Assembly: GCF_000219125.1 (NCBI RefSeq)
Contig: NZ_AFGF01000016.1
Location: 1-64,000, forward strand
Reading direction: 5' to 3'
Length of the DNA: 64,000 nt
Source: Acetonema longum DSM 6540
GTDB taxonomy: Bacteria; Bacillota; Negativicutes; Sporomusales; Acetonemataceae
In this document: one piece after another, positions 42,704 through 46,488 of the stretch
How the letters are laid out: every line of letters starts with the position of its first letter
Numbering within the stretch: the stretch's first letter is position 1
Position numbers and translations under genes: made by a program
Notes under the pieces: model-generated
Database searches by the model: none
What the model was told of the DNA's origin: nothing
The model's input: the letters and a program-made list of their open reading frames with translations, nothing else

Positions 42704-43705
42704 ATGGAACTTGTAAATTCAGTTACGAGAAACGGCGGGTGCGCTCTCGCGACGGGGGGCGAGATACTATATGTTTCTTATTATTCATCTGGCGCAAGTG
42801 CCTTAGTTAAGTACAACCCGGAGACCCTGGGGTCAATTGGCCACGTTCAACTTTCTTCATACGCCGGTTCACAGTTATTCGGTATGGTATATGATAATGG
42901 GTTTCTTTACACCGCCTATTATAACGTAAATTACGTGCATAAGATCGATTATGCTACCGAAGCATTTAACAGTACTTATTCGGCCCGTGGAACAGGGTAT
43001 GTAAATTATACAGTAGCCACGGATAACAATTACGTTTACTACTTGATGGGTAATGGCAGGCGTGAAAAGTATCTGAAAAGTAACATGTCTCTTGCCTTAT
43101 CGTATTTAAGCAGTGCCGGGTGGGACACGAACCCCGCAGGCGCGGTGATAAAAGATGGATATATTTATACCGTGCAATACCAGTCAACAATTCCCTGGAG
43201 AGTTACAAAAATTGATACAAGTACATTGCACACCGCCGCACAGTTAGAAGTCCCAAATACAAACCCGAGCAATTCTGACGCGTATCCATACGATCTGTGT
43301 GTTATCGGGAACTATCTATATGTTATACTGCGTCGCGCCCCTGGAAGGATTGCAAAAATCGATCTCAACACATTTCAATGGGTGGACACAGTCCAGTTTC
43401 CGGGAGCAAACACCAACGACAATATTAGTCCTGAAAGGTGCTTGGCTGTTAACGGCTACATATACGCGCAATGCCGCACAGACCCGATTACCATAATTAA
43501 GATTGATCCTAGCACAATGCAAATTGTAGAGTCGCTGAAGCATTCGAATTTAGGCAGCAGCAGCGTGTCGGCGTGTCGTGGCATGGCTTACGCTGACGGG
43601 TATTTGTATTCTCTGACAGATACGCGTTTGGCGAAGATTTATGTCGGCGGGGCTGAACCCCCTGCAGCGCGATCTTACTCTTTGGTGATTGGGGGCGATC
43701 TATGA
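42704..43705 (+). CDS. beta-propeller protein, probable receptor-binding tip
   Basis: This 333-residue protein consists of six or so propeller blades: repeats of GxLYxxYY...VxKIDxxT, for example DNGFLYTAYYNVNYVHKIDY, KDGYIYTVQYQS, NGYIYAQCRTDPITIIKID and ADGYLYSLTDTRLAKIYVG. YncE/NHL-like propellers are common ligand binders. AGGAGG precedes ATG 42704, and the gene lies between the fibre and its chaperone, the usual place of the receptor-binding protein. No signal peptide. The target ligand, perhaps an envelope glycan, is unknown. Its lower GC content relative to the shaft genes suggests exchange of the binding module. Confidence 0.72.
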   Translation: MELVNSVTRNGGCALATGGEILYVSYYSSGASALVKYNPETLGSIGHVQLSSYAGSQLFGMVYDNGFLYTAYYNVNYVHKIDYATEAFNSTYSARGTGYVNYTVATDNNYVYYLMGNGRREKYLKSNMSLALSYLSSAGWDTNPAGAVIKDGYIYTVQYQSTIPWRVTKIDTSTLHTAAQLEVPNTNPSNSDAYPYDLCVIGNYLYVILRRAPGRIAKIDLNTFQWVDTVQFPGANTNDNISPERCLAVNGYIYAQCRTDPITIIKIDPSTMQIVESLKHSNLGSSSVSACRGMAYADGYLYSLTDTRLAKIYVGGAEPPAARSYSLVIGGDL

Positions 43706-44274: not shown

Positions 44275-44558
44275 TCAGGATCGTGTCTGATTTCCCGACG
44301 CCGACCTGGTCAGCCGGCGTCGCGCTTGTTAATCCTGGGGATGGCCAGCAGTCAGTCATCAATCTCTTTCCGCGTGCCGGCATGCTGGTCAGCTACACTA
44401 TATTGACAACCAATACACCTGTCGCAGCTGCCAATGTGCAGATCTACCATGATGCGATGAGTTCCGCAGCCGAATCCAGATGGATCTGGACCTGCGATTT
44501 TCCAGCCATTCCTCCTTTACGGAGGACTATAAAAATAGGGGAGATGATAATTTGCTGA
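44271..44558 (+). CDS. hypothetical small tail-locus protein
   Basis: This 95-residue frame starts at ATG 44271, overlapping the preceding stop by four bases, and ends seven bases into the holin-like gene. Its N-terminal 75 residues are beta-rich (VSDFPTPTWSAGVALVNPG, SYTILTTNTPVAAANVQIY); the last 20 are basic. No family is recognised. Tight overlaps on both sides favour a real gene. Confidence 0.5.
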   Translation: MIRIVSDFPTPTWSAGVALVNPGDGQQSVINLFPRAGMLVSYTILTTNTPVAAANVQIYHDAMSSAAESRWIWTCDFPAIPPLRRTIKIGEMIIC

Positions 44559-44929
44559 ATTTAGGGTTTACGTCTATTAGTCTCGATCCTGTTTACTGGG
44601 CAATTATTGTTGTGATCGTTGCCAACCTGATTTTGTGGGTTGGCTTTTTGATTTATGCACGAGATCCTCATTCGAAATTGGGGAAGAAAATTGAGAAACA
44701 AATCTATTATCTGGACGAATTCGCGGACGACATGTCAAACAAGCAAAAACGTCAAAACGCTATTGATTTTGTTTATACTGTGTTAGGTTTGAAGGGGTTG
44801 AGCAAATATCTGATACCGCCGCAGCTCATCGGTTACATTATCGACATCCAGGTAAAGGTGATCCGGGCAATGCAAAAAGCGACCCAGTCGCCGGATTTGC
44901 ATCAGGAAGAAGGTAATATTGATGGCTAA
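44552..44929 (+). CDS. holin-like membrane protein
   Basis: This 125-residue protein starts at TTG 44552, nine bases after GGGGAG; the upstream frame from 44480 lacks a ribosome site. One strong membrane helix (about 12-32, YWAIIVVIVANLILWVGFLI) is followed by a charged, helical cytoplasmic part (IEKQIYYLDEFADDMSNKQKRQN) and a C-terminal amphipathic helix. It overlaps the amidase gene by eight bases, so it should be the holin or holin-like regulator of release. The layout resembles the LL-H holin family but I cannot confirm membership. Confidence 0.6.
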   Translation: MLNLGFTSISLDPVYWAIIVVIVANLILWVGFLIYARDPHSKLGKKIEKQIYYLDEFADDMSNKQKRQNAIDFVYTVLGLKGLSKYLIPPQLIGYIIDIQVKVIRAMQKATQSPDLHQEEGNIDG

Positions 44930-45518
44930 GGTTTGCATTGATCCTGGTCACGCAGGCCCCACGACGGATCCGGGAGCAGTATCGCCATATACCGGTTTGC
45001 GGGAGGCGGATGTTGCTTTATCCGTTTCCCTGCTGGTCCGAAGTTACCTGTGCGCTGCCGGGCACGAAGTCTGTTTGACTCGTACTGAACTGGAACAGCC
45101 TGAAACCGATGATCTTGGATATCGCACGCAGTTTTCGAATGACTGGGGAGCGGACCTGTTCGTCAGCTTGCATTGCAACAGTGCGACGATCCCTTCTGCG
45201 CACGGATTTGAAGTTTGGACTTCTCCGGGGCAAACCCAGGGAGACGTACTGGCGACCCGCGTATTTGAACAAATTCAGGGTGAATTCCCGGATCGGTATG
45301 GACGTGCAGATTACTCAGATGGGGATCCGGATAAAGAAAGTAAATTCTATGTCCTGGTGTACACAAAGGCTCCAGCGTGCCTGATAGAAATGGCGTTTCT
45401 CAGCAATGAAGAGGAAAGCTGCTTACTGGCGGACGCCGCATGGCAGGACCGTATGGCGCGGGCGGTCGCCAGGGGGATTACCGATTATTTTGGTATTGTG
45501 GGAGGTGATACCGATTGA
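44922..45518 (+). CDS. endolysin, N-acetylmuramoyl-L-alanine amidase (Amidase_3)
   Basis: This 198-residue enzyme cuts the bond between muramic acid and the stem peptide. Zinc and catalytic residues are visible in IDPGHAG (His), GLREADVAL (Glu), FVSLHCNSA (His) and CLIEMAFLSN (Glu). No signal peptide or cell-wall binding domain, so it needs the holin encoded just upstream for export. ATG 44922 lies within the end of the holin gene. The stop codon overlaps the first spanin-like frame. Short single-domain amidases of this kind are usual in Gram-negative-type lysis cassettes. Confidence 0.93.
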   Translation: MAKVCIDPGHAGPTTDPGAVSPYTGLREADVALSVSLLVRSYLCAAGHEVCLTRTELEQPETDDLGYRTQFSNDWGADLFVSLHCNSATIPSAHGFEVWTSPGQTQGDVLATRVFEQIQGEFPDRYGRADYSDGDPDKESKFYVLVYTKAPACLIEMAFLSNEEESCLLADAAWQDRMARAVARGITDYFGIVGGDTD

Positions 45519-45885
45519 TGCGAAAAAGTATTTGTACGGTATTCTTGCTGCTCTCCTTAGCCTGGCTGCCCTCTATCGGTACGGCGGCCGAGATAACGGA
45601 CCCGGAGCTGGCGCGGCTCGAACAAATCTTCAATCAGCTGGAGAGCAACACCAGCGCGCTGGTGAAAGACTTGGAAATATCGAAAACAGACTTGCAGACG
45701 GCGAGGCTGAAGCTGGAAGAGTATCAGAAGGAGTTGGCGGCGTTACAGACCGAATTGCTGACGTTGAGGCACGAATCACAGAAAGTCAGAATCAATCTGC
45801 AGACAGCGCAGAACTCATTAGAGAAGGCCAGACAATCGTTAGAACAGTTGGAAAAAGAGATGCGGCGCGAGCGCAGACGCCTTAA
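45505..45885 (+). CDS. spanin-like protein B (overlapping frame, N-terminal membrane anchor)
   Basis: This frame of about 126 residues is nested with the 45518-45937 frame in another phase. It has an N-terminal membrane helix (KKYLYGILAALLSLAALYRY), then a soluble helical part with repeated ADGEAEAGRVSEGVGGV/DRIADVEARITESQ, ending SAELIREGQTIVRTVGK. That is the layout of an inner-membrane spanin. GTG 45505 is within the GGGAGG site itself; other possible starts are TTG 45490 or ATT 45514, so the start is unsure. Codon use looks natural here as well as in the second frame. Confidence 0.5.
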   Translation: MIPIDAKKYLYGILAALLSLAALYRYGGRDNGPGAGAARTNLQSAGEQHQRAGERLGNIENRLADGEAEAGRVSEGVGGVTDRIADVEARITESQNQSADSAELIREGQTIVRTVGKRDAARAQTP

Positions 45886-45937
45886 GTTTGAACGGAGTGT
45901 GCTGCTGCTGGCAGCCGGTTACCTGGCGATAAAATAG
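45518..45937 (+). CDS. spanin-like protein A (overlapping frame, secreted coiled coil)
   Basis: This 139-residue frame starts at ATG 45518, 12 bases after GGGAGG (TTG 45515 is nine bases after it). It has a signal peptide or anchor (SICTVFLLLSLAWLPSIGTAA), a long coiled coil (about 28-120, LARLEQIFNQLESNTSALVK and QSLEQLEKEMRRERRR), and a hydrophobic C-terminal end (VLLLAAGYLAIK). It lacks a canonical lipobox, unlike Rz1. Two overlapping frames after a phage endolysin are the hallmark of Rz/Rz1, which fuse inner and outer membranes; a diderm host would need this step. Confidence 0.6.
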   Translation: MRKSICTVFLLLSLAWLPSIGTAAEITDPELARLEQIFNQLESNTSALVKDLEISKTDLQTARLKLEEYQKELAALQTELLTLRHESQKVRINLQTAQNSLEKARQSLEQLEKEMRRERRRLKFERSVLLLAAGYLAIK

Positions 45938-46040
45938 CTTGAGGAGCAAAAAATCACAAAATAAGGTTTGATGCTGAGCGGTTTCATCATCGGCGGCAGA
46001 TTCCGGTATCTGCGGCGTCATGGTAAGGTAAGATTTCAAC

Positions 46041-46078
46041 AAAAAAAGGGGAGGCTTCGGCCTCCCCTTTCTTTGTTT
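46041..46078. terminator. bidirectional terminator between tail-like locus and XRE gene
   Basis: AAAGGGGAGGC and GCCTCCCCTTT pair around TTCG, with A and T runs on the two sides. It can end both the lysis operon and the convergent regulator gene. Confidence 0.92.
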
Positions 46079-46111: not shown

Positions 46112-46474
46112 TCACGCCTGCTCTTTCAGATAAGCGATAAACGCCTCCTTGGCATAGGGGGCGGACTCCGGCTTTTTAAGCCATTCTAAGACTTCGTCAC
46201 TGTGATGGGAAAATTGGTCCTCGACACTTAAAAGGTAGGATGAGGTGACGCCTAGGGCCTGGGCTACGGCTTCCATAACATCCTGCGGCCAAAGCTTGGG
46301 TATGCCCTTTTCGTACCGGCTGTACTGGGACTGGGAAAAGTCTTTTTTGGAGCCCATTTCTCGCAATGCGGCGGCAACTTTGTTTGCTACTTCATCTTGC
46401 GTCAAGCCAAGTTGTTCGCGTAAATCCTTCATTCTGTCCCCTGGTCCCTGAAGTCGTTTGCCTGTCCGGGCCAT
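46112..46474 (-). CDS. XRE-family transcriptional regulator, probable repressor of the tail-like locus
   Basis: This 120-residue protein has one XRE/Cro helix-turn-helix (about 13-75) reading LREQLGLTQDEVANKVAAAL, with an insertion before FSQSQYSRYEKG, and a short C-terminal tail without a peptidase domain. It therefore cannot be a self-cleaving CI-like protein. ATG 46474 is chosen because GAGGTG lies six bases upstream; GTG 46483 is the longer alternative. It is transcribed towards the tail locus from its right edge. Its own promoter contains palindromes that may be its operators. Confidence 0.85.
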   Translation of the reverse strand: MARTGKRLQGPGDRMKDLREQLGLTQDEVANKVAAALREMGSKKDFSQSQYSRYEKGIPKLWPQDVMEAVAQALGVTSSYLLSVEDQFSHHSDEVLEWLKKPESAPYAKEAFIAYLKEQA

Positions 46475-46488
46475 TTTAGTCACCTCAT

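Follow-up and report, generated by a model that had tools for sequence, protein, structure and literature searches.

Two almost fully overlapping genes in the lysis cassette of a Negativicutes prophage form a candidate spanin-like module without a conserved lipoprotein

How phages of diderm Firmicutes without a Lol pathway break the outer membrane of their hosts is a question to which a prophage locus in Acetonema longum DSM 6540 offers a concrete candidate answer. Negativicutes are diderm (PMC5007114), neither Lol components nor outer-membrane lipoproteins have been identified in Negativicutes or Veillonella (PMC5007114, PMC5491611, PMC10665443), and the spanins of the published survey all depend on an outer-membrane lipoprotein (PMC6139136). 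One would not expect a phage of a Lol-less host to depend on a lipoprotein of the Rz1 type. A 2025 survey of viral lytic proteins describes spanins as absent from the phages of Gram-positive bacteria (PMC12596118). Here we analyse a 64,000-nucleotide stretch of the A. longum genome (the window), in which two overlapping reading frames, A and B, follow an endolysin gene, and propose that the pair probably works like a spanin.

The pair is part of a prophage lysis module. The region from about 25 to 44 kb of the window holds tail genes, encoding a major tail protein, an assembly chaperone, a tape measure and tail proteins; among them, positions 42704–43705 encode a predicted 333-residue protein with β-propeller-like repeats and no PHROG match. 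The subsequent gene order, read 5′ to 3′, is a likely holin, an Amidase_3 endolysin and then frames A and B. The holin candidate (44552–44929, forward strand) starts with TTG, has a single clear N-terminal membrane helix and weakly matches phrog_6918 (E 0.046); the endolysin (44922–45518, forward strand) is an N-acetylmuramoyl-L-alanine amidase (Pfam PF01520, E 5.9e-42; PHROG endolysin, E 1.2e-52). A position in the lysis cassette, with the two genes embedded, overlapped or adjacent, is characteristic of two-component spanins. Downstream of A, a self-complementary G+C-rich repeat followed by a T-rich run (46038–46077) is a likely terminator, and contig C35 of this genome carries a similar sequence. 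A regulator-like gene on the opposite strand (46112–46483) and then a recQ-like gene lie beyond the two frames.

Frame A (45518–45937, forward strand; 139 residues) and frame B (45514–45885, forward strand) share positions 45518–45885, the 368 bases given in a preliminary description of this DNA. In the window alone, the openness of B given A is not beyond chance, as B stays open in 65% of within-gene synonymous permutations of A and in 7% of pooled resamplings of the synonymous codons of A. Across 31 diverged loci (L012 and L026 excluded), both frames are open in every case, with a joint synonymous-shuffle probability of about 1e-47 (log10 about −47) that overstates the independent evidence because the loci are related, and the third frame contains 6–19 stops over the same stretch. 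For pairs of loci with A proteins less than 45% identical, similarity in frame B lies above the synonymous-shuffle expectation (mean z of 2.8–4.1, compared with 0.3–1.2 for the third frame), and the reverse test, which keeps B fixed, finds A likewise conserved beyond expectation. Both frames are conserved as protein, and the third is not.

With a B profile as query, matches at E ≤ 0.001 were obtained in 155 of the 379 class genomes; the weaker matches may be generic coiled coils. Of the loci recovered by this profile and absent from the A search results, 20 were examined, and in 20 of 20 A is present in the expected register (E 1e-11 to 1e-25) and the third frame is blocked. Relatives with one frame riddled with stops, to which the preliminary description had pointed as the telling counterexample, were sought and not found among these 31 and 20 loci. 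The nearest approach is L012, where the frame slips within the shared sequence so that A and B trade their N-terminal portions; it is either a damaged copy or a sequencing artefact. From these sequence comparisons we conclude that A and B are both real overlapping genes. The idea that only one frame is a gene, with the other open as a by-product of its codon usage, has some room in the window taken singly but is barely credible, since dozens of diverged loci keep both frames open and conserved and each can be found independently of the other.

The two genes start within a few bases of each other. A Shine–Dalgarno stretch, gggaggtgat (45500–45509, forward strand), probably serves both frames, and a similar stretch lies 5′ of the overlapping starts in relatives. 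It is followed by ATTGATG (45514–45520, forward strand), which contains ATT in frame B and both TTG and ATG in frame A. The start of A is the ATG at 45518 or, alternatively, the TTG at 45515, which overlaps the endolysin stop; that of B may be ATT at 45514 or GTG at 45505, the latter being the sole NTG codon of frame B shortly 5′ of its membrane helix and situated inside the Shine–Dalgarno stretch. Relatives keep the ATTG, and in some of them B lacks any NTG start: in L006, L009, L048 and L050, no ATG, GTG or TTG lies 5′ of the membrane helix of frame B and ATTG is found at the aligned place, which would supply TTG as the start of A and could supply ATT as that of B. Elsewhere the arrangement varies, with the two starts overlapping as ATGTG in L010 and L011, and with the start of B positioned upstream with its own ribosome-binding site in L007 and L017. 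The pattern suggests that some members of the family initiate frame B at ATT. We set aside programmed frameshifting as a link between the two frames, having seen no slippery heptamer of the classical kind in the A-rich region of the starts.

Frame B has the layout of an i-spanin, with a predicted N-terminal membrane helix and a periplasmic domain in type II orientation. A KK motif precedes a hydrophobic helix (45526–45579, forward strand; residues 3–24 of the AlphaFold model, which has a mean pLDDT of 83.1), hydrophobic in all relatives, followed by a short DNG-containing linker and a periplasmic helix of 88 residues (45610–45873, forward strand; residues 33–120) with a heptad period of 3.5. 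The model agrees with the preliminary description of B as a membrane helix followed by a helical rod. Periplasmic cysteines for intermolecular disulfides are very common in two-component spanins (PMC6139136), whereas in the window neither B nor the mature part of A contains cysteine; some relatives have one near the C terminus of B.

Frame A begins with a signal sequence (45518–45586, forward strand) with a predicted signal peptidase I-type end (…SIGTA/A), and its product is, judging by this sequence, most likely exported by Sec and cleaved by signal peptidase I. The mature part begins around Y-x-I-T-E-x-E-L and forms a coiled-coil rod (45599–45880, forward strand) with a heptad period of 3.5, contained in one continuous modelled helix of 111 residues (residues 28–138 of an AlphaFold model with a mean pLDDT of 88.7). 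Of the earlier picture of A as a signal-anchored coiled coil, the signal and the long helix stand; it missed a C-terminal hydrophobic segment with a terminal lysine (45896–45934, forward strand), which is conserved in all aligned relatives and which, across the family, takes the form of a basic patch resembling Q-R-N, then a short run of hydrophobic residues and, at the very end, K or R.

The pair is found throughout the Negativicutes, with close homologous loci in Sporomusaceae and Propionispora, and is also present on IMG/VR viral contigs. The gene just 5′ of it in relatives is usually an endolysin, of unrelated kinds (Amidase_3, Amidase_2, GH25, glucosaminidase, M15 peptidase and VgrG3-C-like), and a module that stays constant while the endolysin is swapped would have the look expected of a third lysis function. 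A phylum-wide search with the A profile gave many matches outside the class; at 24 distinct out-of-class places inspected, a sample rather than a census, the matches are generic or repeat coiled coils and no genuine overlapping B is found. L072, taken up as a possible out-of-class pair, was rejected as a heptad-repeat protein with a second frame that is driven by the repeats and has no membrane helix. The A profile alone is therefore unspecific and the pair must be required. A single-sequence search of genome contigs with A gave no match, nor did tblastn searches of deposited phages with either protein; the pattern scan used a closer subset of A proteins, as the 31-row A alignment is too diverse. 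In open-access literature, with subscription journals and preprint servers largely outside the search, we found no earlier description of the module and nothing relevant on spanins together with Negativicutes, Veillonella or Selenomonas.

A second copy of the pair is present in the same genome (L006; L083, 5881–6303, reverse strand, contig C15), with B in the same register; homologues across the order and the class also preserve this register. Its identity to the window copy is 80–81% in A, 73% in B and 69% in the third frame, too close to be informative alone. This paralogue adjoins tail genes with no endolysin between, a point against the lysis reading, and is probably a truncated prophage in which both frames are still open.

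What sets A apart from an o-spanin, which is an outer-membrane lipoprotein with a lipobox, is the end of its signal sequence. The absence of a lipobox noted in the preliminary description is borne out, with no cysteine at this place in the window or its paralogue. About four of the 44 A proteins (L025, L027, L028 and L031) have an acceptable lipobox by PROSITE where the signal ends, of which L027 and L028 also pass a stricter scan, and the other PROSITE matches among the 44 lie inside the hydrophobic core. Frequent endings are GTC, GIC, GLC and GMC, in which a disallowed residue precedes the cysteine, followed by a signal peptidase I-like ending in A. The search for a separate lipoprotein frame that had been suggested earlier came out negative, as a scan revealed no consistent candidate near the 44 pairs. 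In L011, a further frame of 98 residues, which has a ribosome-binding site and a signal resembling that of a lipoprotein, lies about 1.2 kb past the point where the A open frame starts; no such frame was seen beside other pairs.

The host itself has the envelope that a two-component spanin acts on, as LpxC in its own genome indicates an outer membrane. LolA is absent from all 200 class genomes searched, including that of A. longum, whereas controls such as E. coli are positive. Given this absence and that of identified outer-membrane lipoproteins in the class, an A protein without a conserved lipobox fits its hosts.

These data bear on the alternative that survives best, an ordinary two-component spanin with A as an o-spanin lipoprotein that has a relaxed lipobox (GTC, GIC or AGSC) and reaches the outer membrane by a route other than Lol, the window copies having lost the cysteine. 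A cysteine lies near the signal end in 37 of 44 A proteins when the range is set generously, four A proteins fit PROSITE as described, and lipoboxes as unusual as AWAC are functional (PMC6139136). However, T, I, L or M usually precedes the cysteine, and no cysteine lies at the signal end in the window, L006, L023, L024, L029, L043 and others. The lack of LolA in the class also counts against it, as does the Veillonella outer-membrane proteome, in which acyl modification was not seen, a test that its own authors consider indecisive. On balance we regard an ordinary lipoprotein spanin as unlikely.

The explanation that we favour, and hold to be likely, is a Lol-independent two-component spanin-like lysis module in which the C-terminal tail of A contacts the outer membrane. 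In the proposed sequence of events, the holin and endolysin would act first, and the peptidoglycan would be digested. B would be anchored in the inner membrane by its N-terminal helix, with the 88-residue helix projecting into the periplasm, and A would be exported by Sec as a 111-residue rod ending in the short hydrophobic segment flanked by basic residues. At 1.5 Å per residue, these helices would extend roughly 13 and 17 nm, respectively. A and B would then probably form a coiled-coil complex, long enough to bridge a periplasm, in which the C-terminal segment of A would engage the outer membrane, this rather than a lipoprotein anchor because the host has no Lol pathway, and draw the membranes together, disrupting or fusing the outer membrane as Rz/Rz1 does. 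We infer the complex, the contact of A with the outer membrane and the disruption of that membrane. The fuller statement, that a class-wide two-protein lysis system breaks the outer membrane without a lipoprotein, through insertion of the tail of A and with some members using overlapping ATTG starts, has in our estimate about an even chance of being right. The tail of A could equally sit in the inner membrane, leaving the outer membrane uncontacted, in which case the spanin reading weakens.

A related possibility is that A acts like a unimolecular spanin, either alone or with reversed polarity and its tail in the inner membrane, with B as a helper or regulator. With its exported N terminus and C-terminal hydrophobic segment, A has the layout of T1 gp11 minus the lipobox. 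Unimolecular spanins are defined by an N-terminal lipoylation signal and a C-terminal transmembrane domain, but the window copy and most relatives lack the lipobox, and A is helical where the periplasmic domain of the T1 gp11 family is rich in β-strands. Moreover, B is kept with A at every locus examined, which a dispensable helper would not need. We therefore think this very unlikely. More doubtful still is regulation of the holin or endolysin by the pair, as an antiholin-like or inner-membrane timing complex in which the outer membrane is not involved: both proteins have anchors compatible with the inner membrane and are encoded in the lysis operon, but the pair is constant across unrelated endolysins, is confined to an outer-membrane class within our sample, and has two long periplasmic helices, which is the layout of an i-spanin and not the usual layout of a holin.

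For the two-component spanin-like module, comparison with known systems is instructive. As in λ Rz/Rz1 and P2 LysB/LysC, overlapping frames follow the endolysin gene in a phage of an outer-membrane host, and one partner consists of an N-terminal membrane helix and a periplasmic helix. In contrast to those systems, the overlap here spans nearly all of both genes, with starts a few bases apart, and A is not a conserved lipoprotein but a long helical rod with a signal of the Sec type and a hydrophobic segment at its C terminus. T1 gp11 shares the exported N terminus and the C-terminal hydrophobic segment, whereas A is always paired with B. Kongari et al. 2018 name hypothetical spanins, among them a type I inner-membrane protein with a C-terminal transmembrane domain and an outer-membrane protein serving as o-spanin; the layout of A is of a kind that their criteria could not detect, a possibility that the paper names without an example. 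The preliminary proposal of a spanin pair, perhaps of a new type, is sustained in part: the genes are real, lie in a lysis cassette and belong to a host lineage with an outer membrane, A has no lipobox, and a new type of spanin is the reading that fits best. By the published definition, which demands an outer-membrane lipoprotein, A is not an o-spanin (PMC6139136), and for want of that lipoprotein the pair is neither a two-component nor a unimolecular spanin as these are defined.

The module spans the class as a candidate non-lipoprotein spanin and, if the reading is true, would represent an adaptation of phages to hosts without the Lol pathway. The pair is also an extreme case of overlapping genes, with heptad-repeat helices coded in both frames. 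It provides an annotation rule for Negativicutes prophages, in which gene callers are likely to retain just one of the two frames.

Several B members weakly match PHROG profiles of Rz-like spanins. Some of these profiles are also matched by a few A members, so that the B matches are partly explained by coiled-coil composition, and we do not claim homology to spanins such as λ Rz/Rz1 or P2 LysB/LysC. A Pfam search of the frames gave generic coiled-coil matches only. Of the 31 B members, 17 match phrog_18860 (best E 3.7e-7), a PHROG family with no assigned function that may include phage relatives of B.
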